A program made the position numbers and the translations under genes. From positions 1 through 64,000 of the forward strand of contig NZ_AQXR01000009.1 in NCBI RefSeq assembly GCF_000376885.1: a stretch of 64,000 bases of DNA, in the 5' to 3' direction. The notes under the pieces are model-generated. The model ran no database searches. It worked only from the letters and a program-made list of their open reading frames with translations, and had not been told where the DNA came from. The stretch is from Alloscardovia criceti DSM 17774 (GTDB lineage Bacteria > Actinomycetota > Actinomycetes > Actinomycetales > Bifidobacteriaceae). Shown here one piece after another: positions 38,841 through 54,519 of the stretch. Within the stretch, counting starts at the first letter, position 1; the number at the start of each line of letters is the position of its first letter.

Positions 38841-38975
38841 AACGAAAGAGTGGGCTCACTCCAGCCTGTTTTCTTTTCACAATTGGTAAAATGAAAAGAG
38901 TTTATCCATACGACTGCGGGCAATGATGCGGTAGTTGCATATGGCGCTTTCGCAGTTTTGAGAGAAGAGGCCATC

Positions 38976-41900
38976 ATGGGTATCGGTAAACGCATTATTT
39001 CCATGCTTGTAACGATTTTCGTTGTTTTTGGAACGGCCGGAAGCGCATACGCGGCGGATTTATCCAGCGGCAGCACAGTAGCGGTAAGCCAATCAAGCGA
39101 GTCGGGCGAGGCGCCGCCACCAGAGTCATCTGATTCAACGCGCGACAGCTCAGAAGACACGTCTAAGGTAACACAAGGCAAGTCCACCGATGACATCGCG
39201 GGGGAAAGTACGTCTGATACGTCCATGAGCGAAACCCCAACGCCTCAGACTCCAGCAACCGAAACAGCCACTGAAGTTCCTGTCCCTTCCATGCAATCAA
39301 ATAACCAGACGGCAGAAGAACCCGCATCGACACCGTCCGAAGAAACTCAAACCCCAGATAAGGCGCCCGCACAAGCTTCTCCTGCAGCACCACAATCCAA
39401 CTCTGATGCAACGGAAGATAGCACCCTGAAGGTTGATTTCCGCATTTTTAATCTTGAGTCTGACAATTCAATTAACGATAAGTCTGAATTTTGGGTTGAA
39501 AATACGGTCAACGCCACGGCCAGCCTCCAAGTTTCTGGCTCAGGTGCGGATGCCATTATCCGAAATCCTTGGCTCAAAATCACCGTGCCGAAAGCACATA
39601 TTAAAGACCTGAAGCTCTCCGATTCGCAGAACGCGTATCAGACAATCCGCATTACTGAGAGCGCTGTAGACCCAGATAATGCCTATATCATTTACAAATT
39701 CACGGAATTCACAGGTGCGTCCAGCGCAGCTTATCCTGTACCGTTTGTGGTTAACGGCGCACGATCAGTCGATGGTGATACCATCACCGTCAAAGCCGAA
39801 ATTCTTGACGCCCAAGATGACAGCATCGTAGGTAATCGAAATGACAGCAACAAAGCAAATGTGCTGAAAACATCCAATAATCTTCCCGTACTGTATGAAA
39901 CTACGAAGACCTACACCATCCGTAAGGTGGAAGAATCCTTCAACCATGCAAGTGTAGCGGCCACAACCGGTAAAGCAGCGGATTCAGGCGAACCGCTTAT
40001 GCACCTGCGCTACGACAGCAACATCCCAGAGGATGAAAATAACGAAGTCTTTGTATATCGCAAAGTGGACGAGGACACAAGCACCACAACCGGAGACACT
40101 GGCGTACGCACAAACTTCTACTACAGCACCGTTATCGATCCTCCTACCGTGCCTGAGGGCCAAACGGCGTATTTCCTGAAGCCAAAACTTATCGTTTCGC
40201 AGTTCCGTCTCCCCGATAACGTGGAACCCGCGTGGCCGGAACTTTTTGAAAACGAAACCTTCGTAGACACGAGAAATAAGAGCATATGGTCATACGATGC
40301 GGAAAACCACATCCTCACCGTATCCGAACCGGAAAATCTCCTCACACCATGGCGCAACGGCGATTGGTATAGATGGTACAAAGATGGTCGCGATTTCATC
40401 GTAGAACTCGTGGTGAAAGATGCCACCTACTGGAATCCTGACACGGACACCACCGAGCAGATGATGGACAAGATAGTTGATATTCCTATCCAATCCACCG
40501 TAACAATGCCGGATAATTCGCAATACACACTGCCCGCAGTCACCGCTCACCTCCTCGTGCAAAGGGAGCCCTTCAAACGCCACGGAAATTTCTGGGCATA
40601 TAAGTCGTATAGGAGCTCCGGCACAACCTTGGAGGATGTGTACGCTGGAGGAGGCGATTATACCCAGCCACTGTCTGTTTATTCAGGCCACTACACCATT
40701 CGTAATGGTGTCATTTATGACCGTCTCGGCAATGACCAATCAAAGTTTGGCCTCTACTACAACACTGTGCTCAGGAATACGAACAATGGCTCCTCATCCA
40801 CAAATCCGGACGGTGGAGCGATAAGCAAGCTTCAATCCTATGAAGATTACCTAGATATCCCTGAAAAAATACAGAACGGAGAATACGGCAATACGTATTA
40901 CGAAAAATTCGAAATCGTAGATGTGGATACGACCAATCCTTTGCTACCTTCCCTCACCAATGAAAAGCGACAAGAAAAAGTCGACCAGACTATTCGCCAA
41001 ATTAACGAGGCTGGCAATGTACTTTACGCCATCGCAGAGGATGGCACGAAGGTCGAAATTGCAAGGAATGTGAAGTATCGCCAGGTCGTAAGCATCCATG
41101 ACACAAATCGCACTTACAAGGGAATTATCCTCGAATTCAATGATCCGATTGTCATGGATAACGTCAGCATAAACATCATTACGGGCGTCCAGCTCACTCA
41201 GGATGAATATGAACGGTATCAGGTGAAAGAATATGCCCCGCATCAGTATCGCACCGGCTACGAAGCCAAGTATCTGTCCGACAGCGACAGACAATACACG
41301 TGGAATAGGCCGACAGACGGCGCAGCACAGGCAACCGTTTCCAGAATCACTCCGCAGGTTCGAGGAAATGTGCCGGCAGACATGTCCCTACCGTATTCTT
41401 CCACAGGCAGCTTCATCAATTATAGATTCTCGGTCGGCGGCTACTCATACGAAGGCTCTTGGGGAAACTTGAAAGAATTCTCAGGATACGCCATACTACT
41501 CCTTCCTCCTGCGTTTGTATACGGCAATAAAACCGTTATGGTGGGAGACCGGAACGCTGGCACGCGAGTCGAGCCTCGCATAGTGGAGAACTTCAAGGGC
41601 ACGGGCCGTACGGCTCTCATCTACCCTTCCTTTGACTTCCAGCCACATCTCAGCACATTAGATGATGCAAACTTCGAAGCAACCATCGAGGCTACAAAAT
41701 ACGCGCAACGTGGAAATAACCAGGTTGATATGTATTTCGTGTATACGAATAACGATGAAATTCAACCAAAAAAGGATGTGAATCTGCCAGACATCTCATA
41801 CACGGATGAGCTCGATTTGGATAACGACGGAGACGTGAATGAGGTCTTCGTACACAGATGGTCACAGATTAACTACATACCATCCCTGGAAATGGTGGTC

Positions 41901-44900
41901 ACTCATCAAGTTGGACTAGACGCGCAAACCATGGCACTCGCCACCACTGGCGATCTGGGCTATGACTATATCTATGGCGTGACGATCACCAATAACACCA
42001 TTTATGAAGTACATAATTCCACCATTATCGGCGTCCTTCCTCAGAAGGGAGACAAAGTAGTGGCGCCGAACCAGGATGGAGAATACGCTGATCGCGGCTC
42101 CACATTTGGCGTAAGCTTGTCGAAATTCCTGGAGGATGAAGAGACGAATGCGGGACCTTTGGAGCGTTTTACTGTCCTCTACCAAACTGAATCTCACCAA
42201 GGGGATATCGATGGCTTGAGAGATGGCGCATGGCTTACCAAGAATCAAGTGGAAGATGTTTCCCAAGTCAAGGCTTTCAAACTAGCGCTCAAAGATGGCA
42301 GGACGATCGAGCCTAAGGAGGAGATAAAGATCTACTACACCTCGAAGCTGCCTTTTGATAAAACCTTGACGCCAGCAAATCAAGAGAACGCAGATGTGGC
42401 TGTCAGCACCCTCGCCATCTCCACAGACGGCACGGTGTATGCCGAGGGAAACAAGGTCGAAACCAAATACACCTCCTATGATGTGGATGGCACAGTGTAC
42501 ATCGATCGCAACCTCGATGGTGACTGCAACGTGTCCGGCCCGACCGCTCGTGCCGCTGGCTCTGCCGAATCTGAGGAAACCGTCGAAGGTATGCAGGTGG
42601 ACTTGGTAGATGCCACTTCCCTAGAGCCTGTCACCGATCCTGAAGGGAACCCGATTACTGCTACCACCGACGCGAATGGCTCCTATCATTTTGATGTCTA
42701 TAGGCGAGGGAGCTATCGCGTGCGCTTTACGAAGCTGGATACGCAGCGCTTTGCGCTGGTGAGCGGCGGCGCAGATGCTCTCACGCCTAACCAACTCGCA
42801 GCCAGCGATACTTCGGGCAATCTGGGCTACGGTCCTGTGCTCGCCTTGAATCCTGCACATCTCTCGGCAGTAAGCAATGCTGCAATCGAGTCGCGCATGG
42901 ACTTTACGGCAAGCAAGAAGTGGATTGGCATTACGCAGGATTCCACGACTGTAGAATTACTTGCAAACGGCACCAAGCTAGAGGTAGCCGCGGACGGCAC
43001 GATTACACCGGACTTGTTTAATGCCGGCACAGTAATTGAAGGACTCCAGAACCCTGTGACGCTGAATGCGGATTCCTGGTCTCATGTGTTTGCGAACCTG
43101 CCGAAGTACGACAAGGATGGTAACGCCGTCACCTACACGGCCCGCGAGCTAGGAGCAGATAATGTTGCCCTCAGTGATGCAGAGAGAATCACCATCAATG
43201 GCAAGAATTATACGGTGAGTTACGCAGACACTGCGGAAGCCACGACCGTGACAAACACCATGGATAATCCGAAAACTAGTGTTTCGGGCGAAAAAACATG
43301 GGATGATGCAAACAACCAGGATGGAAAGCGCCCCGCGTCGATCACCGTACACCTCATGGCGGATGGCGTAGATACTGGGCAAAGCGCCGTTGCTTCAGCC
43401 GATGCTGAAGGCAAGTGGACGTACAGCTTCGCGGATCTAAATACTTTCGATGAAGCTGGGCAGCCGATTACCTATAGCGTTTCCGAAGATGCCGTATCTG
43501 GTTATACGGCCACTTACAGCGGTATGAACGTCACCAACACGTACACGCCTGAAAAGGTCACGGTTTCGGGCACCAAAACCTGGGCGGATGCCAATAATCA
43601 AGATGGACTGCGCCCACCATCGATTACCGTGCATCTCCTGGCGGATGGCGTAGATACTGGGCAAAGCGCCGTTGTTTCAGCCGACGCTGAGGGCAAGTGG
43701 ACGTATTCTTTCGCTGGTTTGGATAAGTACCAGAACGGTAAGGAAATCGTTTACACCGTCACTGAGGAAGCCGTGACTGGCTATACCGCCACCTACAAAG
43801 GCCTGAACATCACCAATACGCATATGCCAGAGCAGATAACGGTTTCCGGCACGAAGACTTGGGAAGACGCCAATAACCAGGACGGCAAACGACCAGCGTC
43901 TATTACTGTGCACCTCTTGGCGGATGGCGTGGATACTGGCCGAAAAGCGGAAGTACGCGCAGATACCGAATGGAAGTACGCGTTTGCGAATGTCGACAAA
44001 TTTGCCGCTGGAAAGGCAATTGTTTACACCATTTCTGAGGACCGTATCGAAGGCTACACTTCAACGGTTAACGGTATGGATGTGACCAATACCTACACGC
44101 CTGAGAAGCTTACAGTTTCTGGTACGAAGACTTGGGAAGATGCCGACAATCAAGACGGCGTGCGACCTGAGACTATTACTCTTCATCTGTGGGCGGATGG
44201 CGTGGACACGGGTAAAACCACTACCGCCACCGCAGATACTGGATGGACATATTCCTTCGCAGATCTCGATAAATTCAAGGAAGGCAAGGAAATTACCTAC
44301 ACCATAACTGAGGATGCCGTGGACGCGTATTCCACCACCATCCAAGGTTTCAACATCACAAATACCCATAATCCTGAGAAGCGGGACATTACCGTAACGA
44401 AGCTGTGGAACGATGCTGATAATCAGGACGGCGCTCGCCCAGATAAGGTGACCGTCCATCTGTGGGCAAACGGCGAGAATACCGGCAAAACCCTAGATAT
44501 TTATGCCGCCACAGACGGCACGTGGACCGGCAAATTCACGGATCTCGATGTCTACAAGGCTGGGCAACGCGTGAATTACACAGTTTCTGAGGAAGCGATT
44601 TCCGGCTATACCACTGCCATTGATGGCTTTACCATCACCAATACTCATGAGATTGAGACCATCGATGTACCCGTTTCGAAGGTTTGGGTGGATAATGACA
44701 ATGCGAAGAATCAACGTCCGGACACTGTGAAAATCCAGTTGATGGCCGATGGTTCAGACGTGGAGGACGAGAGTCTCAGTCTCGATGCCCAAGGCGCGTG
44801 GAAGGGCACGTTCAAGGATTTGCCAAAGTATAAGGCAGGTGCCATAAAGCAAGAGCTGAACTACAGCATTGAAGAAATCGCCGTGCCGGGTTACTCCACG

Positions 44901-46325
44901 GTGGTGGAAGGTACTGCGGACGCTGCGGGCTTCACGGTGACAAACACCATTACCGGCAAGGTTTCTGTGGCCGTAACGAAGAAGTGGGAAGGCATCAATA
45001 CGGATGCTGCACCTGCCGTGACCGTGAATCTGCTGGCGGATGGCGTGAAAGTGTCCGAAGCTGTGCTCGATGGAAATGCTGAAGGCGGCAAGTGGGGTCA
45101 CACCTTCACCGATCTCGACCAGTTCACCAGTGAAGGACAGGAAATCATCTACACGGTCGAGGAGCACGGCGCCCAAGACGGGCACCTTACTGCCGAAGGG
45201 CATGAGTACACGGCTCAAATCGTTCAAACCGAAGGCACCAACACGTGGACTATCACCAATACTTTGGTCAATCCGGAGGTGCAGGTGCCCGTCCGCAAGG
45301 TTTGGGATGATGCCGGAAATCAAGACGGCATGCGACCTGAAACGATTGTGATGCGTCTGACTGCCTCCCCGGCTGGTGGGGACACGGCACTTACTGCAGA
45401 GACCCTGGATGGGATACCGGTTGGACCTCTAACGTTGACGGCTACCGGTGAATGGAAGGGCTCATTTGTGCATCTTCCACGCTTTGATGCGAAGGGACGC
45501 TCGATTACGTATACCGTGTTGGAAGACGAGGTCGATGGATACACCACTGAAATTACCGGGGATGCAGAGTCGGGCTTTGTGGTGACAAATAGCCACACGC
45601 CAGAAACAATCAGCATTCCGGTGACGAAGCAGTGGATCGCTGACGCAGATAATGCTGCAAGTTTGCGTCCTGACGGCATCACCGTGCATCTCATGTCCGA
45701 TAGTAAGCAGGTCGAGACCCAGGAATTGCGGATTACGCCTAACGAGGACGGCGTATGGGCAGGCACATTCAAGAATCTGCCAAAGTACGCTCCAGGTGAG
45801 GAAGGCCGCGAAATTGTGTACTCGCTCAGCGAAGATCCGGTCACAGGCTATGTCACGAGCGGCATAGTGGGCGATGCTACTGCAGGCTTCACCGTGTCCA
45901 ACACCCTCATCACCGGCACCATAAAACTGATGAAGGTGGATGAGGCCGGCAAACCACTGCAAGGCGCACAGTTTGAACTGCGCGATGCGGAGGGGAGCAT
46001 CGTGGCAACTGCCACCTCTGGCGAGGATGGCTTCGTAATCTTCGAAGGAGTCGTGTTCGGCAATTACACCGTAACCGAGGTGGCTGCGCCTGGAGGTTAC
46101 GAAAAGAGCGATTGGACGGCAGAGGGTGCGATTGACGAGCTCGGTCAGGTGCTTGATCTGGGGCGAGTAGTCAATAAGCAAATCCCTCATCCGGTCGTCC
46201 AGCTGGCTCGCACGGGGGCTGAGATCTCGATGATGCTGAGCTTGGCGGGCAGTTTGCTACTGGCTGGGCTTGTAGCCAGAGGCACAGGTCGCCGCCGCTC
46301 GGGAGGTGGTGCGCATAAAGACTAA
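38976..46325 (+). CDS. giant Cna_B-repeat surface adhesin with LARTG anchor
   Basis: 2449 residues. ATG at 38976 follows AGAGAAGAGG and begins a signal peptide ending near AYAA (residue 26). A Ser/Thr/Glu/Pro-rich linker runs to about 145. A unique N-terminal region of about 1000 residues follows, paralogous to that of the frameshifted adhesin: both contain LDLDxDGD, a TGDLGY segment and DGEYxxRGST. An SdrD_B-like domain (VYIDRNLDGDC) starts near 1167, ten Cna_B repeats run from about 1306 to 2310, then a SpaA-like domain (KVDEAGKPLQGAQFELRD). LARTG, a hydrophobic helix and RGTGRRR form the sorting signal. Repeats 2-5 are most alike (SGTKTW..NNQDG), indicating recent expansion. The protein should be wall-anchored and stabilised by isopeptide bonds; the ligand is unknown. 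Confidence 0.9.
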   Translation: MGIGKRIISMLVTIFVVFGTAGSAYAADLSSGSTVAVSQSSESGEAPPPESSDSTRDSSEDTSKVTQGKSTDDIAGESTSDTSMSETPTPQTPATETATEVPVPSMQSNNQTAEEPASTPSEETQTPDKAPAQASPAAPQSNSDATEDSTLKVDFRIFNLESDNSINDKSEFWVENTVNATASLQVSGSGADAIIRNPWLKITVPKAHIKDLKLSDSQNAYQTIRITESAVDPDNAYIIYKFTEFTGASSAAYPVPFVVNGARSVDGDTITVKAEILDAQDDSIVGNRNDSNKANVLKTSNNLPVLYETTKTYTIRKVEESFNHASVAATTGKAADSGEPLMHLRYDSNIPEDENNEVFVYRKVDEDTSTTTGDTGVRTNFYYSTVIDPPTVPEGQTAYFLKPKLIVSQFRLPDNVEPAWPELFENETFVDTRNKSIWSYDAENHILTVSEPENLLTPWRNGDWYRWYKDGRDFIVELVVKDATYWNPDTDTTEQMMDKIVDIPIQSTVTMPDNSQYTLPAVTAHLLVQREPFKRHGNFWAYKSYRSSGTTLEDVYAGGGDYTQPLSVYSGHYTIRNGVIYDRLGNDQSKFGLYYNTVLRNTNNGSSSTNPDGGAISKLQSYEDYLDIPEKIQNGEYGNTYYEKFEIVDVDTTNPLLPSLTNEKRQEKVDQTIRQINEAGNVLYAIAEDGTKVEIARNVKYRQVVSIHDTNRTYKGIILEFNDPIVMDNVSINIITGVQLTQDEYERYQVKEYAPHQYRTGYEAKYLSDSDRQYTWNRPTDGAAQATVSRITPQVRGNVPADMSLPYSSTGSFINYRFSVGGYSYEGSWGNLKEFSGYAILLLPPAFVYGNKTVMVGDRNAGTRVEPRIVENFKGTGRTALIYPSFDFQPHLSTLDDANFEATIEATKYAQRGNNQVDMYFVYTNNDEIQPKKDVNLPDISYTDELDLDNDGDVNEVFVHRWSQINYIPSLEMVVTHQVGLDAQTMALATTGDLGYDYIYGVTITNNTIYEVHNSTIIGVLPQKGDKVVAPNQDGEYADRGSTFGVSLSKFLEDEETNAGPLERFTVLYQTESHQGDIDGLRDGAWLTKNQVEDVSQVKAFKLALKDGRTIEPKEEIKIYYTSKLPFDKTLTPANQENADVAVSTLAISTDGTVYAEGNKVETKYTSYDVDGTVYIDRNLDGDCNVSGPTARAAGSAESEETVEGMQVDLVDATSLEPVTDPEGNPITATTDANGSYHFDVYRRGSYRVRFTKLDTQRFALVSGGADALTPNQLAASDTSGNLGYGPVLALNPAHLSAVSNAAIESRMDFTASKKWIGITQDSTTVELLANGTKLEVAADGTITPDLFNAGTVIEGLQNPVTLNADSWSHVFANLPKYDKDGNAVTYTARELGADNVALSDAERITINGKNYTVSYADTAEATTVTNTMDNPKTSVSGEKTWDDANNQDGKRPASITVHLMADGVDTGQSAVASADAEGKWTYSFADLNTFDEAGQPITYSVSEDAVSGYTATYSGMNVTNTYTPEKVTVSGTKTWADANNQDGLRPPSITVHLLADGVDTGQSAVVSADAEGKWTYSFAGLDKYQNGKEIVYTVTEEAVTGYTATYKGLNITNTHMPEQITVSGTKTWEDANNQDGKRPASITVHLLADGVDTGRKAEVRADTEWKYAFANVDKFAAGKAIVYTISEDRIEGYTSTVNGMDVTNTYTPEKLTVSGTKTWEDADNQDGVRPETITLHLWADGVDTGKTTTATADTGWTYSFADLDKFKEGKEITYTITEDAVDAYSTTIQGFNITNTHNPEKRDITVTKLWNDADNQDGARPDKVTVHLWANGENTGKTLDIYAATDGTWTGKFTDLDVYKAGQRVNYTVSEEAISGYTTAIDGFTITNTHEIETIDVPVSKVWVDNDNAKNQRPDTVKIQLMADGSDVEDESLSLDAQGAWKGTFKDLPKYKAGAIKQELNYSIEEIAVPGYSTVVEGTADAAGFTVTNTITGKVSVAVTKKWEGINTDAAPAVTVNLLADGVKVSEAVLDGNAEGGKWGHTFTDLDQFTSEGQEIIYTVEEHGAQDGHLTAEGHEYTAQIVQTEGTNTWTITNTLVNPEVQVPVRKVWDDAGNQDGMRPETIVMRLTASPAGGDTALTAETLDGIPVGPLTLTATGEWKGSFVHLPRFDAKGRSITYTVLEDEVDGYTTEITGDAESGFVVTNSHTPETISIPVTKQWIADADNAASLRPDGITVHLMSDSKQVETQELRITPNEDGVWAGTFKNLPKYAPGEEGREIVYSLSEDPVTGYVTSGIVGDATAGFTVSNTLITGTIKLMKVDEAGKPLQGAQFELRDAEGSIVATATSGEDGFVIFEGVVFGNYTVTEVAAPGGYEKSDWTAEGAIDELGQVLDLGRVVNKQIPHPVVQLARTGAEISMMLSLAGSLLLAGLVARGTGRRRSGGGAHKD
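42893..45915 (+). repeat. ten Cna_B repeats in the LARTG adhesin
   Basis: Units of about 90 residues start near 42893, 43260, 43555, 43835, 44105, 44380, 44655, 44950, 45280 and 45600. Units 2-5 share VSGxKTWxDAxNQDG and HLxADGVDTG and are almost interchangeable. Units 6-10 follow the more varied types seen in the paralogue at 21694-28188. Confidence 0.8.
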
Positions 46326-46380
46326 GGCCTCTCAGGCCTCGCGAGAGTTATAGGGAAGGAGGAGGGGCGGCAGGTGGTCG

Positions 46381-46492
46381 AAGCGTGATGACTGAAGTGC
46401 AGATGCCGAAGCGTGACAAGTGAAGCGTGACAAGTGGAGTGCGGAAACTGAAACGCGGCGGATGAGACACGAAACTAAAGCGTGACAGCTGA
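46381..46492. repeat. degenerate direct repeats AAGCGTGACAAGTG
   Basis: Four copies of a roughly 14-bp motif start at 46381, 46409, 46423 and 46479. The copies at 46409 and 46423 are identical and adjacent. The rest of the stretch is loosely related. It lies directly behind the adhesin stop codon. Confidence 0.6.
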
Positions 46493-46546
46493 AATGAGAC
46501 TGACGCGATGAAAGCACTTCCCTCTCTGATAACAAACAAAAATACA

Positions 46547-46587
46547 GTTGGTGGCAATCCGGATTTACGGGTTGCCACCAACCTTTT
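46547..46587 (+). terminator. terminator of the LARTG adhesin gene
   Basis: GTTGGTGGCAA pairs perfectly with TTGCCACCAAC and is followed by CTTTT. It lies unusually far (about 220 bp) after the stop codon, behind the degenerate repeats. Confidence 0.8.
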
Positions 46588-46695
46588 GTGCTCATGACTG
46601 GGTGCTGATAAGAATGGGATATGCACGAGAGTAGCTAGGGTGGTTGCGCTAGCGAATAGTTTTCAAACCGTATGTGAGTGAAAGTGATGAAGTTC

Positions 46696-46766
46696 TTTGC
46701 AGATGTGACCATTTTTTGACTCAATGAGGATGAAATGAGGGGTCAAAATGGGCACATTTACAAAAA
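46696..46766. repeat. inverted repeat pair 1 of the alternating array
   Basis: Forward copy TTTGCAGATGTGACCATTTT at 46696, reverse copy at 46745-46766 (its complement reads TTTGTAAATGTGCCCATTTT). The offset between copies is 49 nt and the inner spacer about 28 nt. Confidence 0.75.
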
Positions 46767-46881
46767 ACATAGCTCCATTGGGAGCCACACCGGGTTTTTC
46801 TGAGGTCGATGCGCACTGCGCATTCGCTGCTTCATCGGAAAGCCAGTTTGGAAAGGTCCTTGCGTGATTTCCACCTCGTTC

Positions 46882-46952
46882 TTTGCAGATGTGACCATTT
46901 TTATATTTGAGCACTCCGAAAGAGGACACCGAAATGGGTCAATCTGCAAAAT
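46882..46952. repeat. inverted repeat pair 2 of the alternating array
   Basis: Forward copy TTTGCAGATGTGACCATTTT at 46882, identical to that of pair 1. The reverse copy at 46931-46952 has complement TTTTGCAGATTGACCCATTT. The offset is again 49 nt. Confidence 0.75.
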
Positions 46953-46998
46953 ATCGTACTAAATCGAGCACCTTGCAAATTTTCCCCAAATTTTTGCA

Positions 46999-47071
46999 TT
47001 TTTTGCACATCAGCCCAACTTTGCCCCCCAATGACCCCAAACCGGTAATCGTATGGGTCAATCTGCAAAAT
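46999..47071. repeat. inverted repeat pair 3 of the alternating array
   Basis: Forward copy TTTTTTGCACATCAGCCCAA at 46999; reverse copy ATGGGTCAATCTGCAAAA at 47051-47071. The offset is 52 nt. Confidence 0.75.
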
Positions 47072-47129
47072 AACGCGCTCAAATCAGAAGTATTTCGATT
47101 TTTATCCCACAGTGCGCTTTCCGACCTAG

Positions 47130-47204
47130 TTTTTTGCACATCAGCCCACATCCGATTCACTGATTAGCAAGTTCGAATGCACAAATGGGTCAATCTGCAA
47201 AAAA
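47130..47204. repeat. inverted repeat pair 4 of the alternating array
   Basis: Forward copy TTTTTTGCACATCAGCCCAC at 47130, nearly identical to pair 3. Reverse copy AAATGGGTCAATCTGCAAAA lies at 47182-47204. The offset is again 52 nt. Confidence 0.75.
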
Positions 47205-47273: not shown

Positions 47274-47308
47274 TTTGTCCCCGGTAGGAATAACCTACCG
47301 GGGACAAA
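47274..47308 (-). terminator. terminator of the LVDTG giant protein gene
   Basis: A perfect 15-bp stem TTTGTCCCCGGTAGG / CCTACCGGGGACAAA with a 5-nt loop, followed by TTTTG on the minus strand. It lies 62 nt after the stop codon. Confidence 0.9.
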
Positions 47309-47369: not shown

Positions 47370-50300
47370 TTACTCCTCATCACGGCGCTTGCGCGCAGCC
47401 AGAGCCATCCAGCCGAATGCGATGAATCCAAGTGTTGCCACTGCGATTGCTACCACATTTGCACCGGTGTCGACGAGAGCGGTAGAACGGTACTTACCGG
47501 TATTGGAGGTTGGTACGTTGTTTCCAGCGTTGCCCTTGTTTCCATTGCCGTTAGCATCGTTTCCGTTTTGATCGTTTTGACCATTCTGTCCGTTCTGGCC
47601 GTTGTTACCGTTGTCGGTGTCCTCTACGGTAACCTTGACCGTGATTTCTTCACTCGAGCCATCAGGATAGGTGATGCGCACCGTTCCTTCAGAGGTACCA
47701 GGCTTGCTGGTATCTGGGGTCTTCGTCCAGTCGATGACTGTGCCCGCAGGCAGGTCGTCGAGATTGCCAATTGCATCGGAAGGATTTGGAGTCTTATCAC
47801 CAGGCTTGGTGGTGATGTCCTTTCCTTCTGGATTGTAAATATCAGCATCGCTTCCGACCTTGACGTTGACTTCTACTTCTTGAGTGGAGCCATCAGGGAA
47901 TGTGACGAGCACGGAGCCCTTCTTAAAGCCTGCTTCAGTGGTGTCTGGAGCATTCTTCCATTCGACCGTGGTGCCTTGTGGGAGATCCGCCAAGTTCTTG
48001 ATGGCGTTGGATGCGTCAGGCAGCTGAGCACCCTTGTCCACCTTCACATCTTGACCGATAGCCGTGTAAGCATCGGCGTCAGAGGTGATCTTGACTGTGA
48101 CATCCACTGTGTCGCTAGAGCCATCAGGGTAAGTCACCTTCACCTGAGACGTGCTGGTGCCAGGCTTAGATGTATCCGGCTCGGTTACCCACTCAAACGT
48201 GGTGCCGTCAGGCAGGTCGCCCGCATTCTTGATGCCATCGCGAGCATCCGGTGTAGCGTCGCCCTTCTTCACCTCAATGGCTTGAGCTTCTGGATTATAA
48301 GCCTCAGCATCCGTACCCACCTTGACTGGAACCGTTACCGTATCCTTCGAACCATCCGGATATGTAATAGTCACAGTGCCCGTAGTAGAACCAGGCTTAG
48401 TAGTATCAGGCTTTGGCTCATCCCATGTCACAGTCGTGCCGTCAGGTAGCTTGTCTGCATCCTTGACGCCGTCCTTTGCATCTGGGAGATCCTTGCCCGT
48501 GTCCACCTTGACTTCCTGGCCCTGTGGATCGTAGGCGTCAGACATTGTCTTTACGGTGACGGTGACAGCAACCTCATCGGTGGTGCCATCTGGATAGGTG
48601 ACCACAACCGTGCCGGTCTTCTCACCCGCAGTTGAAGTGTCCGGAGCGACATCCTTCCACTCGTAAGTAGTACCCGCAGGGAGATCATCCTTATTGGCAA
48701 TGCCATCCGAAGCCACCGGTGCAGTACCGGCTGTTACTTCAATGCCTTGAGCAGTTGGAGTGTACGCATCTGAAGCATCACCGTAGGTCAATGGCACAGA
48801 CACAGCATCCGTGGAACCATCTGCGTAGGTGACGACCATCTGGACAGCCACATTCTTACCATTGGTTGGAATGCTCGTACCCTCAGCCAGCTTGATGCTC
48901 TTTACTACGCCTTCTGCAGGTGTAGGGCTGATGCTGACCTTTGCTGCCAAGGCTTCTTCTGTGACCTTCGTGCCGTAAGGGACATTCAATGCTTCGGCGG
49001 TGGCATCGTACTTGGTGGCATCCGTGCGGTTATCTGTCACGTTTACCGTAACGTCTACCTCATCGGTGGTGCCATCTGGATAGGTGACTACAACCGTACC
49101 GGTCTTCTCACCAGCATCAGAAGTGTCCGGAGCACCATCCTTCCACTCATAGGTGGTACCGTCTGGCAAATCATCCTTATTGGCGATGCCATCAGACGCA
49201 GCTGGAGTCTCACCCAAGTCAGTAGCAATTGGTGCAACCTCTGGGGTGTAACTATCGGCAGCATCGGCGTAGGACAGAGTGACGGTCACGGTATCGGAGG
49301 TGCCATCCCAGTAGTCAACGACCAAAACTACAGCATTATTCTTGCCACTTGATGGAATCGTCACCTTGTCGGCGAGCTTGATCCGATAATCGTTAGCCTC
49401 AGGCTTATCATCACCGGTGAAAGTGACCTGATCAGTCAGATCCTTTAGCGTTGCAGTCTGTCCGTAAGGCTTTGTGACTGTGCCGCCTTGTGGATTGTAC
49501 TTGATAGAGGCTGGTCGAGGATCAGAGACCACAACTGAAATCTCCTTCTCGTAAGTCGAGTTATCAGGGAAGGTGACCACAACCGTAGCCTTAACCGTGC
49601 CTGCCTTGCTGACATCCGGATCTTCCTTCCATGCGAAGGTGGTGCCTGCTGGCACGTCACTGTCGTCACCGGTGACGGTTTGAGTGCCCGCAGCGTCAGG
49701 CACCGTACCAATAGGCGTGTATATCGTATCCCTCAATTCGACTTCATAGATATCGTTATCCTTGCCTACCTTCACAGGTACGGTTACGGTATCCTTCGAG
49801 CCATCCGGATAGGTGACGGTTACAGTACCGGTCGTGTTGCCAGCCTTTGAGGTATCTGGTGTCTCTGTCCATTCGGCAGTTGTGCCTGAAGGCAGGTCGC
49901 CCCAGTTCTTGATGGTATCCGAGGCTGTTGGTACATCACCATTGACTGGGACGAGAATATCATCCTTAGCCTGTGGATCATACAAATCAGCATCCGAACC
50001 CACCTTGATCGGCACTTCTACGATATCCGAAGAATTGTCCGGATAGGTGACCTTCACGAATGCGGTGCTTTCACCCGCAGTGGATGTATCTGGATCCTTC
50101 ACCCATTCATACGTGGTGCCATCTGGCAAATCAGCTGCATTTTCGATGCCGCTCTTTGCATCTGGCACATCCGCGCCGGTCTGTACCGTGACCTGCTGAG
50201 CAGTTGGCGTGTATGCATCCGCATCGGTGCCAACCTTCACAGAAACGGTGACATCTTCCGTGCTGCCATCTGGATACGTGACGGTGATAACACCACTCTT

Positions 50301-53300
50301 CTCACCAGCCGTAGAGGTATCCGGCGAAGTGGTCCATGCAGCGGTAGTGCCGGCAGGCAACTCATCAAGATTAGTAATCGTGGTGTTTGCATCTGGCAGA
50401 GTACCGTTCAATGGCACGGTCACATCCTTAGCCTGAGGATTATAAGCATCCTTCTGTGGCTTCGCGGTGACGGTGACTTCCACCTCATCCGTGGTGCCAT
50501 CTGGATAGGTGACTACGACTGTGCCCGTCTTGTCACCCGCAGTAGAAGTGTCCGGAGCGCCATCCTTCCACTCATAGGTGGTGCCAGCCGGGAGATCATC
50601 CTTATTGGCAATGCCATCGGAAGCCACAGGTGTGGTACCTGCAGTCACTTCGATTGGCTGAGCGGTAGGCGTATAAGCATCTGCAGCGTCGCCATAGCTC
50701 AGGGTGACGGTAGCAGTATCTGTAGAACCATCCGCGTAGGTGACCACCATAGGCATTGGCAAATTCTTACCATTGCTTGGAATGGTTACACCATCAGCCA
50801 GCTTAGTGCTTGTGACTACACCATCGGCAGGTTCTGGGCTGATGTTGACCTTAGCTGCCAAGGCTTCTTCTGTGACCTTCGTGCCATAGTCAACCGACAA
50901 ACTGCCACCCGTAGCTTCGTACTTAGCAGCATCCTTACGGTTATCTGTGACGGTGACAGTGACAGGAACCTCATCGGTAGTGCCATCTGGGTAGGTGACT
51001 ACAACCGTGCCGGTCTTCTCACCAGCAGTAGAAGTGTCTGGAGCTCCGTCCTGCCACTCGTAAGTGGTGCCAGCCGGGAGAGCATCCTTGTTGGCAATGC
51101 CTTCTGAAGCAGATGGCGTGGATCCCAGATCAGCAGCAATCTCTTGTGCCTCAGGCGTATACGCATCCGAAGCATCGCCGTAGCTCAGCTTGACGGTTAC
51201 GGTATCCGTAGTCTTATCAGCGTAGGTTACGACGAACACAACGGCGTTATTCTTACCCGAAGTTGGGATGGTTACACCATCGGCGAGCGCGATTGAGTAC
51301 GAATTGTCGGCAGGTGCTTCACCGGTGAAGGTGATCTTGGCCTTGAGCTCATCCTCTGTGGCGGTCTGTCCGTAAGGCTTTGTCAGTTCGCCGCCCTGAG
51401 CATCGTACTTGTTGGAGTCCGCGCGGGTGTCCAAAACGTTCACCTTGACTGGTACTTCATCGGCAGTGCCGTCAGAGTACGTGATGACAACGGTGGCGTC
51501 CTTTTCGCCTACGGTGGAGGTGTCAGGAGCGCTGTCCTTCCACTCGATGCTAGAGACCTCGGTCAGCTCGGTTGGGTTTGCAATAGCTGTGGAAGCAGAT
51601 GGAGCATCACCATTGAGCACGGCGGTAACGTCTTGTCCCTGTGGGTTGTTGCGTTCTGCATCCGTACCGAAGATGACGCGCATTGGCACGGTATCGGTGG
51701 AGTCATCTGCATAAGTGACCACCATATCTACGGTGTTAATGCCGGAGGTTGGTAGTTCTTCGCCATCGAGTAGTGCAACGCTCTTCACATCGCTTGCATT
51801 GGCAAGTTCTGGTGAGTATGCGATGTTGTTTTGCAACTCTTCGAGGGTTACGGAACCCTCCATTGGCTTGCGGATGACTTCTTTCGCGGATGTCGTGTAC
51901 TTTTCTGTAGCTGTGCCGAATGCTACTGCTACGTTCACATTTTCAGACGAGCCATCCTTGTAGGTGACAACCATAGGAACCATGTTAATCTTGCCTGCTG
52001 TAGGCAGGTTGTCTGGATCTACTGGAGCGATGGTGCCTACGGCGCTCTTGTCTGGGGTGACGGTGACTGCATTCGCTAGTTCGTCTGCGGTGAGCGTGGA
52101 GCCGTATTCCTTTTCGATGGCGCCACCGGTTGCGGTGTACTTTTCAGCAGCTGTCTGGTAGGACAGGGTGACAGTGACGTCATCCGTAGAACCATCTGGA
52201 TAGGTGATGACGAGTGGAATATCGTTATCGATACCGCTGGTTGGAATGCTTGCGCCGTTTGCGAGTGCGACAGTTGGCGTTACGCCATCTGCGAGCTCAG
52301 GGTCATAGGTAATGGTTGCGGACAAATCATCCAGCGTTGCCATTTCGCCATATCCCTTGGTGAGGGAACCGCCGCGAGCGCTGTAGGTTTGAGCCTGGGT
52401 AGCGTTTTCGGTGACTGCAATGTTGATCGTCACCTTATCTGTGGAGCCATCAGGGTAGGTGACCACGATAGTGGCTGGCACCTCGCCTTCATTGCTCAAG
52501 TCTGGGGTGGTTTCCCATGTATAAGTGGTACCATCCGGCAGGTCAGACTTGTTGGTAATCAAAGTGGCAGGATCTGGTGCAGTATCGCCTGGTTTGGCAA
52601 CTGTATCCTTACCAATTGGCTCATACTGGTCAGCTTGGTTTTCCACGATGGTAATGACGGTGCCTGTGGAGGTGTTTACGCCCTTAGGATCGGAGCCCAC
52701 CAGCACAGCCTTGGTTACATTCGATGGAATGGTATTTGCTGGAATGCTGAGCGTAAAGGCGCCGGATTCCAAATCGTTGAGCGGGATGCTGTAGGTCGCG
52801 TAAACGGTACCATTTGCCGTTTCTGTGCCGTCCGCTTCCGCCTGGACGAGTTTGACGATGGCATTGCCCGCCGCCTCGTTGGTGGCGTGAATCTTCTGCG
52901 TGGTATCTGCAGGATTGTCATACACCGTCTTTGGCATAGTGCCCGTGATGGTGCTATCTGCAGAGCGAATCAGCGTGGTGGTTTGAGTAGTTGGTTCGTT
53001 GACCTTGTACTGGCCGCCATCTGTACCGACCGTGTTGTCATCGTACAGTTCCTGAGGATCTGGTACGCCATCGCCATCCGTGTCCACGTTCGTGTTGTTA
53101 TAACCAAAAGCAAACTCGACAAAGTCGAAGATGCCGTCGTTATCCGTATCATTCGACTGCACATACGAGTTTGCGTAGGAATTGGTCAGAACCTTAGGCG
53201 TGGCACCATTATCTGCTTTACCAACCAAGCCGCCGAAGATGTACTTATTTTGGTAATCTGCGACCAAATCAGACTGGAAGTTCAGTGTCTTTCCATCTTC

Positions 53301-54455
53301 TTGCACGAGCTTCTTGACGGTTTCGGTAAATTCTTTTAGCGATACCCCATCCTTGAGCTTATAAGAGATGGTGTAGCTTCGTGGCTGTCCAAGCGTACCC
53401 CAGAACACATCATTGGTGTTATCGCGCGCTTTATTTAACTGGGCAAGCGTCAGATCATCGCCATACTGCGCAATAGACAGTGCGGAATCCGTGCCCGTAT
53501 CGACTCTTCCATCCGCAGTCGTGTTGATGGACCACTTGGTACGGCCGGTATCTACGTACTTACCTTGAGCATCGGAATTGTAGAGCTGCGTACCCGTAGT
53601 ATCAATGAATGGCAGTAACTCTTCCGGAATTTGCTCACGAATGTAAACAACCCAACCGTAATCCGTCTGCAAGTAGTTTTCTGTAGGCTTGACGGTATGG
53701 ACCGAGTTGATGCGCATCGTGGTTGGATCCATCACGATAAGATCAGAGACGCCGCCGCCGACTGGCGAGTCAGAGAACTCGTTGTCTTTCTCATTGACCA
53801 GATCTGGATTGTTTTGTTGGATAAATCCGGTAGAAACAGCATCACTTGCGATGGCACCGTCGCCTTTAATCCACACGGATTCGAAATTCAGTTTCTCATC
53901 AGCGAGACCCAACGATTCAAGTGTCGCGCCATTTTTGAGCTTAATCGTCAGCATATGCTGAAGCGCACTACCAGCAGGTCCAGGACGAACGCCACCAGTT
54001 ACTGCGATAGGAACTGCCCACGTCGCACCATCAAAATATTTTTGGAGGTATGCGCCTGAGTCTTTGACCTGAATCGTGTCGATCTGCTTATAGAATTCAT
54101 CTTCCATAAAGCTGAGCACATACTTACCAGCCCACTCATTCGTGGTGCTGGTTCCCCAGCCAGTAATACCATCGGCCCATTTAACAATTTCGAGCGTGAT
54201 AGTGCCATCGGAATTCACACCAATGTAATTGGTCTTGGAATACCGAAGGTCGGAATCCTCGATACCGGTTGCGGAATAGTGGGTTTCTGTATCGATTGCT
54301 CGGGTAGACGTACCATCAGCAGCAAACGCTGCCCCAATACCTCCGACTCCTATTGCGCCAACTAATGCAAGAGCCGACAGCCCTGCAATAATTCGACGCC
54401 CTCCCCCTGCAATCTTGAAGATTGCTGCACTATGTGCATTCTCTTTCGGTCTCAT
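47370..54455 (-). CDS. giant Rib-repeat surface protein with LVDTG anchor
   Basis: 2361 residues. ATG at 54455 has TTAGGAG 9 nt upstream; the TTG at 54464 is too close to it. A long signal peptide (IAGLSALALVGAIGVGGIGAAFAA) ends near residue 46. Residues 50-430 are a unique domain, possibly the ligand-binding head. A TSP3-type calcium motif follows (DTDNDGIFDFVEF, DTDGDGVPDPQEL). After about 150 more residues come roughly 21 Rib/YPDG repeats (PAGTTYEWKDGAPDTSTAG, VVTYPDGTTDEV) of 70-83 residues in two types. An Asn/Gly/Gln-rich wall spacer, LVDTG, a hydrophobic helix and ARKRRDEE complete the sorting signal. Rib repeats form stiff stalks that project a head domain. No ligand can be inferred. 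Confidence 0.88.
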   Translation of the reverse strand: MRPKENAHSAAIFKIAGGGRRIIAGLSALALVGAIGVGGIGAAFAADGTSTRAIDTETHYSATGIEDSDLRYSKTNYIGVNSDGTITLEIVKWADGITGWGTSTTNEWAGKYVLSFMEDEFYKQIDTIQVKDSGAYLQKYFDGATWAVPIAVTGGVRPGPAGSALQHMLTIKLKNGATLESLGLADEKLNFESVWIKGDGAIASDAVSTGFIQQNNPDLVNEKDNEFSDSPVGGGVSDLIVMDPTTMRINSVHTVKPTENYLQTDYGWVVYIREQIPEELLPFIDTTGTQLYNSDAQGKYVDTGRTKWSINTTADGRVDTGTDSALSIAQYGDDLTLAQLNKARDNTNDVFWGTLGQPRSYTISYKLKDGVSLKEFTETVKKLVQEDGKTLNFQSDLVADYQNKYIFGGLVGKADNGATPKVLTNSYANSYVQSNDTDNDGIFDFVEFAFGYNNTNVDTDGDGVPDPQELYDDNTVGTDGGQYKVNEPTTQTTTLIRSADSTITGTMPKTVYDNPADTTQKIHATNEAAGNAIVKLVQAEADGTETANGTVYATYSIPLNDLESGAFTLSIPANTIPSNVTKAVLVGSDPKGVNTSTGTVITIVENQADQYEPIGKDTVAKPGDTAPDPATLITNKSDLPDGTTYTWETTPDLSNEGEVPATIVVTYPDGSTDKVTINIAVTENATQAQTYSARGGSLTKGYGEMATLDDLSATITYDPELADGVTPTVALANGASIPTSGIDNDIPLVITYPDGSTDDVTVTLSYQTAAEKYTATGGAIEKEYGSTLTADELANAVTVTPDKSAVGTIAPVDPDNLPTAGKINMVPMVVTYKDGSSENVNVAVAFGTATEKYTTSAKEVIRKPMEGSVTLEELQNNIAYSPELANASDVKSVALLDGEELPTSGINTVDMVVTYADDSTDTVPMRVIFGTDAERNNPQGQDVTAVLNGDAPSASTAIANPTELTEVSSIEWKDSAPDTSTVGEKDATVVITYSDGTADEVPVKVNVLDTRADSNKYDAQGGELTKPYGQTATEDELKAKITFTGEAPADNSYSIALADGVTIPTSGKNNAVVFVVTYADKTTDTVTVKLSYGDASDAYTPEAQEIAADLGSTPSASEGIANKDALPAGTTYEWQDGAPDTSTAGEKTGTVVVTYPDGTTDEVPVTVTVTDNRKDAAKYEATGGSLSVDYGTKVTEEALAAKVNISPEPADGVVTSTKLADGVTIPSNGKNLPMPMVVTYADGSTDTATVTLSYGDAADAYTPTAQPIEVTAGTTPVASDGIANKDDLPAGTTYEWKDGAPDTSTAGDKTGTVVVTYPDGTTDEVEVTVTAKPQKDAYNPQAKDVTVPLNGTLPDANTTITNLDELPAGTTAAWTTSPDTSTAGEKSGVITVTYPDGSTEDVTVSVKVGTDADAYTPTAQQVTVQTGADVPDAKSGIENAADLPDGTTYEWVKDPDTSTAGESTAFVKVTYPDNSSDIVEVPIKVGSDADLYDPQAKDDILVPVNGDVPTASDTIKNWGDLPSGTTAEWTETPDTSKAGNTTGTVTVTYPDGSKDTVTVPVKVGKDNDIYEVELRDTIYTPIGTVPDAAGTQTVTGDDSDVPAGTTFAWKEDPDVSKAGTVKATVVVTFPDNSTYEKEISVVVSDPRPASIKYNPQGGTVTKPYGQTATLKDLTDQVTFTGDDKPEANDYRIKLADKVTIPSSGKNNAVVLVVDYWDGTSDTVTVTLSYADAADSYTPEVAPIATDLGETPAASDGIANKDDLPDGTTYEWKDGAPDTSDAGEKTGTVVVTYPDGTTDEVDVTVNVTDNRTDATKYDATAEALNVPYGTKVTEEALAAKVSISPTPAEGVVKSIKLAEGTSIPTNGKNVAVQMVVTYADGSTDAVSVPLTYGDASDAYTPTAQGIEVTAGTAPVASDGIANKDDLPAGTTYEWKDVAPDTSTAGEKTGTVVVTYPDGTTDEVAVTVTVKTMSDAYDPQGQEVKVDTGKDLPDAKDGVKDADKLPDGTTVTWDEPKPDTTKPGSTTGTVTITYPDGSKDTVTVPVKVGTDAEAYNPEAQAIEVKKGDATPDARDGIKNAGDLPDGTTFEWVTEPDTSKPGTSTSQVKVTYPDGSSDTVDVTVKITSDADAYTAIGQDVKVDKGAQLPDASNAIKNLADLPQGTTVEWKNAPDTTEAGFKKGSVLVTFPDGSTQEVEVNVKVGSDADIYNPEGKDITTKPGDKTPNPSDAIGNLDDLPAGTVIDWTKTPDTSKPGTSEGTVRITYPDGSSEEITVKVTVEDTDNGNNGQNGQNGQNDQNGNDANGNGNKGNAGNNVPTSNTGKYRSTALVDTGANVVAIAVATLGFIAFGWMALAARKRRDEE
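47600..51410 (-). repeat. duplicated eight-repeat block in the Rib stalk
   Basis: Repeats 6-13 (about 51410-49500) and 14-21 (about 49500-47600) follow the same order of subtypes. Both begin with GGxxTKPYGQTAT and then alternate EWKDGAPDTS-type and YGTKVTEEALAAKV-type units. The period is about 1.91 kb, and DNA of matching units such as 9 and 17 is nearly identical. Boundaries are approximate. Confidence 0.7.
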
Positions 54456-54519
54456 TTTTTCCAACTCCTAAACTTTCAGGAAATTAATATGAGATTTAAT
54501 TTTGCATACTGCACTTTCT

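Follow-up and report, generated by a model that had tools for sequence, protein, structure and literature searches.

The window analysed here, which comprises the first 64,000 nucleotides of contig C9 of Alloscardovia criceti (G000:C9:1-64000; the whole genome, G000, is 1.88 Mb long and consists of 11 contigs), contains an array of eight arms of about 19 nt arranged as four facing doublets with the arms 53-54 nt apart. We consider it probable, at about 0.58, that this array is part of a REPIN/RAYT-like partnership between a protein and its repeats, built on an AbiEi-type DNA-binding nuclease. The arms are dispersed and paired with a cognate gene, whose product would bind, cut and copy them. 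Most of the family genes examined keep arrays of their own arm on both sides, and further arrays are found elsewhere in the genomes that were searched as a whole or over 200 kb.

When all arms are placed in one 19-nt register, the forward ones begin at 46694, 46880, 47000 and 47131 and the reverse ones at 46748, 46934, 47053 and 47185, which gives within-pair offsets of 54, 54, 53 and 54 nt and interiors of 35, 35, 34 and 35 nt for doublets 1-4. These values replace those of a preliminary description of the stretch, in which offsets of 49, 49, 52 and 52, which arose from mixed registers, and inner spacers of about 28 nt were reported; the eight repeats in alternating orientation that it described are all present. 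With at most one mismatch, TTTTGCANATNNNNCCA has 9 matches in the 64-kb window, eight of them being the array arms, compared with a mean of 0.49 and a maximum of 3 in shuffled windows, and as none of 100 shuffles reached 9, the array is not a product of chance. Of the eight arms, the right one of doublet 1 (TTTTTGTAAATGTGCCCAT) has diverged furthest. The features of the region are as follows.

38958..46325, plus strand: neighbouring gene outside the system, 2455 aa, repeat-rich surface protein as judged by eye
46547..46582, plus strand: terminator-like hairpin of the upstream gene, before the array, from the terminator scan
46694..46712, plus strand: arm 1, left arm of doublet 1, TCTTTGCAGATGTGACCAT
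46748..46766, minus strand: arm 2, right arm of doublet 1, diverged; interior 46713-46747, 35 nt
46880..46898, plus strand: arm 3, left arm of doublet 2
46934..46952, minus strand: arm 4, right arm of doublet 2; interior 46899-46933, 35 nt
47000..47018, plus strand: arm 5, left arm of doublet 3, TTTTTGCACATCAGCCCAA
47053..47071, minus strand: arm 6, right arm of doublet 3; interior 47019-47052, 34 nt
47131..47149, plus strand: arm 7, left arm of doublet 4, TTTTTGCACATCAGCCCAC
47185..47203, minus strand: arm 8, right arm of doublet 4; interior 47150-47184, 35 nt
47274..47308, minus strand: 15-bp perfect hairpin beyond the 3′ end of the downstream gene, absent from the terminator-scan list
47370..54464, minus strand: convergent neighbouring gene outside the system, 2364 aa, repeat-rich surface protein as judged by eye

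The array is placed between the 3′ ends of the two convergent genes (38958..46325 and 47370..54464). A promoter scan found no promoter-like match at the array, and an Rfam search returned three matches, all below the gathering score. Both giant proteins have, by eye, signal-like starts and membrane-anchor-like ends, and at 46380-46500, just past the stop codon of the upstream gene, there are repeated GAAGCGTGACAAGT-like units unrelated to the arms.

When the arm TTTTTGCANATNNGACCAT was searched throughout the A. criceti genome, 117 sites were found with up to three mismatches compared with 6 for a reversed-pattern control, and 42 with up to one mismatch compared with none. As counted from the match list, with a binomial check of the distribution, 33 of these 42 lie at C9:46.0-143.2 kb, six at C9:240-258 kb and three on other contigs. 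Most of the arm sites are in doublets with interiors of 34-35 nt or about 107 nt, i.e. the genome does hold the further paired copies for which the preliminary description had proposed a search. Among 37 scripted pairings, 24 have a spacing of 53-55 and seven a spacing of 125-127, while the two with spacings of 101 and 45 are probably cross-pairings; on the whole of C9, facing arms show the same two distance peaks, which are absent in the other orientations. The elements occupy gaps between the larger C9 ORFs, convergent and same-direction gaps alike. More than 12 naive ORFs overlapping them were judged spurious or over-extended by eye only, and no target-site duplication was noticed by eye at the elements.

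For the covariation set the cross-pairings 101 and 45 were dropped and two weaker pairs, at 89168 and 90988, were added. In the resulting 37 pairs the outer TTTTTGCA and the inner CCA are nearly invariant, and the middle six positions are looser. The arms of the window-type family are 71-76% identical pairwise, compared with 30-36% for the interiors and 28-33% for the flanks, and taking both A. criceti families the arms are at 71-86% and the interiors at 27-36%, which is near chance; the fixed pair geometry with free spacers noticed earlier holds for the elements dispersed in the genome.

The partner gene lies outside the window, 44 kb away from the array, at C9:91173-92348 on the minus strand, and encodes a protein of 391 aa. 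Doublets of the window type, TTTTTGCA..CCAT, bracket it on either side, which provides the tie to a dedicated DNA-binding protein that had been suggested for the repeats, and its 49% identical relative in A. theropitheci has window-type doublets on both sides, too. The partner appears to consist of an AbiEi-like DNA-binding part followed by a putative nuclease part of the DUF559/Vsr-like (PD-(D/E)XK) type. When seven proteins were compared with the PADLOC AbiEi models, the best three E-values were 3.6e-9, 7.9e-7 and 1.4e-4, the last one belonging to the window's partner; four of the seven matched at E <= 0.001 and one had no match up to E 1. The Pfam AbiEi models match the family below the cut-off only, and DUF559 (PF04480) gives E-values of 0.02-0.05, below the Pfam cut-off in every protein scanned, with four of 17 members matching at E up to 1 (best 0.02). 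As in DUF559/Vsr-like nucleases, to which the profile matches are weak, there is a conserved E, D, E-x-D-G core: E230, R273, D275, E296, D298 and K302 (numbering of the A. criceti protein) are invariant in the C-terminal half of 19 aligned proteins, and E230, D275, E296, D298 and K302 are predicted to be catalytic. In a PDB profile search the best match of profile A1 was an endonuclease-like protein at E 0.42 and A2 had none, and single-sequence structure prediction of the partner was uninformative (pLDDT 33.6). In Pfam/NCBIfam no family was above the cut-off for the members of the partner family save one Alloscardovia frame (L116, G004:C19, 3953-5665), which continues into a LuxS domain (PF02664, 1.2e-46), being either a fusion or a frame continuation.

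A second family of doublets in A. criceti, TTTTGGGCAAAAATGCCCAT, has its own gene at C11:440851-441990 and includes 12 doublets at 55-56 nt with unrelated interiors, all of them located at C11:395.5-464.5 kb (340-540 kb was scanned). The doublets of both families form clusters that reach no further than about 50 kb from the respective gene, with the exception of three doublets at C9:255-257 kb. In the genus, copies of the partner-family gene number two in A. criceti, seven in G002 and nine to ten in G004; the two genomes without such a gene, G001 and G003, have one and no doublet, respectively. In an unbiased inverted-repeat scan most paralogs had doublets of a different arm next to them, on one side or on both, the types including TTTTTGCTAATCGGCGCATT, GTTGTTTGTAAATCATCTCA, CATTTGTAGTCACGAATGAC, TTTTGGGCGNNAATGAC and others, and four loci (L109, L113, L114 and L118) had no clear bracketing repeats. 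At G004:C20:151k the arms on both sides of the gene are identical at 20/20 positions, and at G004:C16:409k the flanking arms are at 20/20 plus 19/20.

The window doublet itself is narrowly distributed, its pattern being present in two of 189 Bifidobacteriaceae genomes, both from Alloscardovia. Within the genus, a relaxed arm search detected a small number of copies in G001 as well as in G004, whereas G003 had none, and one G002 contig has the same element sites as A. theropitheci NZ_RXLP01000021.1. A pair-pattern scan of the contigs of 84,980 species, which may leave out the A. criceti genome itself, found nine stretches, three from A. theropitheci and six single matches in unrelated taxa that look like chance.

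The partner family is far more widespread: profile A1 detects a gene, often in several copies, in 101 of the 189 Bifidobacteriaceae genomes, and most of the 27 loci examined have arm arrays on both sides of the gene. The preliminary description knew of no bifidobacterial counterpart; partner-family genes with cognate repeats of their own are in fact common in Bifidobacterium. At the level of the class, relatives were found in 165 of 394 genomes, most of them matching the second half of the profile only. Each species was represented by one genome in these comparisons. A word of at least 16 nt was common to both flanks at 6 of 18 Alloscardovia loci, 19 of 27 other Bifidobacteriaceae loci and 13 of 25 loci from other Actinomycetes (four short-contig loci, in which the two flanks overlap, were excluded from the last set). 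The corresponding values were 4/306, 33/702 and 22/600 for mismatched flanks, some of which share words because several loci have the same arm type or the same site, 0/180, 0/270 and 0/250 for shuffled flanks, and 2/129, 0/77 and 2/86 for nearby unrelated ORFs taken as a control, where both cases on C9 lie between elements. There was no shared word even at 14 nt at 9/18, 6/27 and 9/25 loci; half of the Alloscardovia loci fail the strict word test, though many show doublets in the inverted-repeat scan. In Bifidobacterium G066 a scan of 200 kb showed another arm at four places, none more than 30 kb from its gene, with the copies alternating strictly at 30/34 nt. Several loci outside Bifidobacteriaceae that belong to family f35 (L188, L193, L194, L195, L196 and L200) have similar-looking bracketing repeats in different species, most of them containing an AATGATCAYGTT-like core; some arm types may therefore persist for a long time.

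Dispersal is best seen in Bifidobacterium G053, a single contig of 2,211,039 bases, in which 89 sites were found for the arm that belongs to the gene at 2184105-2185127, compared with none for the control; in G066 there was one site compared with two for the control. The sites make up 26 arrays spread round the chromosome, namely 21 four-arm arrays of 118 bp (+0, -35, +63, -98) and five partial ones, and two of the four-arm arrays bracket the gene. Not only the arms are conserved in G053 but also the gaps, which are 73-80% identical pairwise with only the central 8 nt free (41%), so the arrays are copies of one element. At 10 of 20 array loci there is an overlapping naive ORF of at least 120 aa. 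At one locus (L215, G053:C1:901988-905561) two arrays lie 1.65 kb apart with identical left flanks, and the right flanks differ from the end of the last arm onward, which is possibly a trace of recombination or duplication at the edge.

According to the report on AbiEi and the AbiEi-type protein Rv2827c (PMC7319586), AbiEi monomers bind 23-bp inverted repeats, and Rv2827c has four 23-bp inverted repeats separated by 13-bp and 4-bp gaps, i.e. starting at 0/36/63/99, compared with 0/35/63/98 in the G053 array. Due to this similar spacing, one monomer per arm would be the natural reading. AbiEi and Rv2827c resemble the partner as AbiEi-type winged-helix proteins, and they bind inverted repeats of about 20 bp (PMC7319586); the partner differs from them in its greater length and its nuclease-like end, in having arrays on both sides of the gene and far from it, and in its adjoining genes, which in A. 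criceti code for a tRNA synthetase and a rhomboid-like protein. In an AbiE type IV toxin-antitoxin system an AbiEii (DUF1814) toxin gene would adjoin. The window array would accordingly represent four copies of a dispersed protein-binding doublet, most likely with one protein monomer on each arm of about 20 bp, as suggested by the AbiEi family, and each doublet would carry two facing monomers at a fixed distance with the DNA between them left free. Monomers bound one per arm, in pairs or fours at a fixed phase, would lead to conserved arms and to free interiors of fixed length. The gene and its repeats would persist as RAYT and REPIN do, the protein and the repeats co-evolving. The nuclease may also help to copy or homogenise the arrays, which is the weakest step of the proposal (repairing or simply policing them are conceivable roles as well), and the interiors, being unrelated between copies in both Alloscardovia families, count against simple copying.

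It is unlikely that the repeats are operators only, with the AbiEi-like protein repressing its own gene, the distant arrays being regulatory or decoy sites and the nuclease-like end taking no part in their spread. AbiEi and Rv2827c do autoregulate from inverted repeats in their promoters, with a closely similar four-site geometry, as stated in the same paper (PMC7319586), and the Alloscardovia arms are conserved and the interiors are not, as expected of binding sites. However, the arrays are on both sides of the gene and not upstream alone, and there is no promoter to regulate at the window array, as it lies between convergent 3′ ends and has no promoter-like match.

The doublets were also described at the outset as hairpin-forming, and an element acting as hairpin RNA or single-stranded DNA in the manner of true REP/REPIN sequences, with the folded doublet being recognised, is an improbable explanation. 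Folding is indeed better than in shuffled sequences for each of the four window doublets (z -2.3 to -3.5), and in G053 the outer arms covary (0.914 complementary compared with 0.860 permuted, 0/1000). The covariation expected of a hairpin is unsupported in the window's family, where the six variable nucleotides match between the arms of a pair in 53% of cases compared with 48% with the arms reshuffled (p about 0.05), and none was found in G053 for the inner arms (p 0.87) or for the whole hairpin (p 0.41). An interior of constant length but free sequence is more easily explained by two bound proteins.

A matS- or parS-like role in organising the chromosome around the replication origin was suggested by the distribution on C9 and has very little probability. 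All the window-type pairs found in A. criceti are on C9, at 46.7-143.2 and 255.6-257.6 kb, on either side of dnaA (174.4 kb), but the second family surrounds its own gene on another contig, at C11:395-465 kb, and the G053 arrays are spread round the chromosome, so the clustering follows the partner gene and not the origin, and this candidate was rejected. The position of dnaA and a GC-skew minimum at about 170 kb place the origin region about 110 kb beyond the end of the window. Six perfect copies of what we take to be the parS motif lie in this region, at C9:134-194 kb.

Genuine REPINs with an unseen RAYT, a decayed coding gene and an assembly artefact can be practically dismissed in spite of the superficial geometry, as the RAYT domain (Y1_Tnp, PF01797) was found in none of five Alloscardovia genomes with 5 of 14 control genomes matching, the interiors are random between copies and hold no shared coding sequence, and the family recurs in independent genomes. 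With no RAYT in any of the five, membership among REPINs is ruled out, and the RAYT-like transposase that the preliminary description had named as one possible support falls away, as does the decayed gene that it had named as a refuting case. A CRISPR-like or integron-like nature of the fixed-length interiors was considered as a further possibility.

What the protein-repeat partnership proposed here has in common with REPINs and RAYTs is the short dispersed inverted doublets of distinct flavours, each beside its own protein gene, and for REPINs and RAYTs co-evolution of the repeat flavour and the protein has been proposed (PMC3116915). Here each repeat type is found beside its own protein gene at many loci, not at all of them. 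Moreover, the partner is not a Y1/HUH transposase but an AbiEi-like protein with a DUF559-like end, up to four or six arms follow each other at strict steps, and the Alloscardovia copies cluster near the gene. In TIRtrons and TIRYTs (PMC3733652) a gene is likewise bracketed by inverted repeats that recur elsewhere as families, but these are RAYT genes with long TIRs, and their protein is a tyrosine transposase, not one of the partner type. In the open-licence PMC literature, represented mainly by titles and abstract openings, neither AbiEi/DUF559-type genes accompanied by dispersed repeats nor repeats of this kind in Bifidobacterium were described, and papers naming DUF559 did not mention repeats in their titles or abstract openings.

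The REPIN/RAYT system is the standing example of a long-lived partnership of a protein and dispersed repeats, the benefit of which is unknown, and the same arrangement with an unrelated protein family would be a second independent case, present in many bifidobacteria. As the paralogs have readable repeat codes of their own, the maintenance of the pair, the action of the protein on the repeats and the change of specificity become testable, and many natural protein-to-DNA-site pairs are provided for the uncharacterised AbiEi-type domain.

More tentatively, the repeats of Actinomycetes may form a RAYT-independent self-paired class, in which AbiEi-type nucleases would cut or nick their own arm arrays, thereby spreading, homogenising and rewriting them, and new specificities would arise by joint replacement of gene and array at fixed chromosomal sites. 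In favour of the main proposal of a cognate partnership, loci with more similar proteins also have more similar arms (Mantel rho 0.46, 496 pairs, 32 loci, 0/1000 permutations), with orthology contributing to the correlation and some arm lists containing chance repeats; the input was all 27 loci from outside Alloscardovia and 12 of the 18 from within it, and of these 39 loci seven were dropped as having no clear ORF or arms. Five loci (L129, L131, L132, L133 and L137) have one neighbour in common (82-94%) and genes about 67-75% alike, and their arms have one part in common (GTACGTT) with the rest different. In another five, L126, L135 and L143 together with L130 and L142, both neighbours are common, mostly at 83-89% nucleotide identity (79-80% in two comparisons with L143), and the gene between them is of two types about 65-70% alike with differing arm types. 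Gene and arm type have been swapped together between species at this one chromosomal site: when L126 is compared with L130, the diverged stretch comprises the gene plus both arrays.
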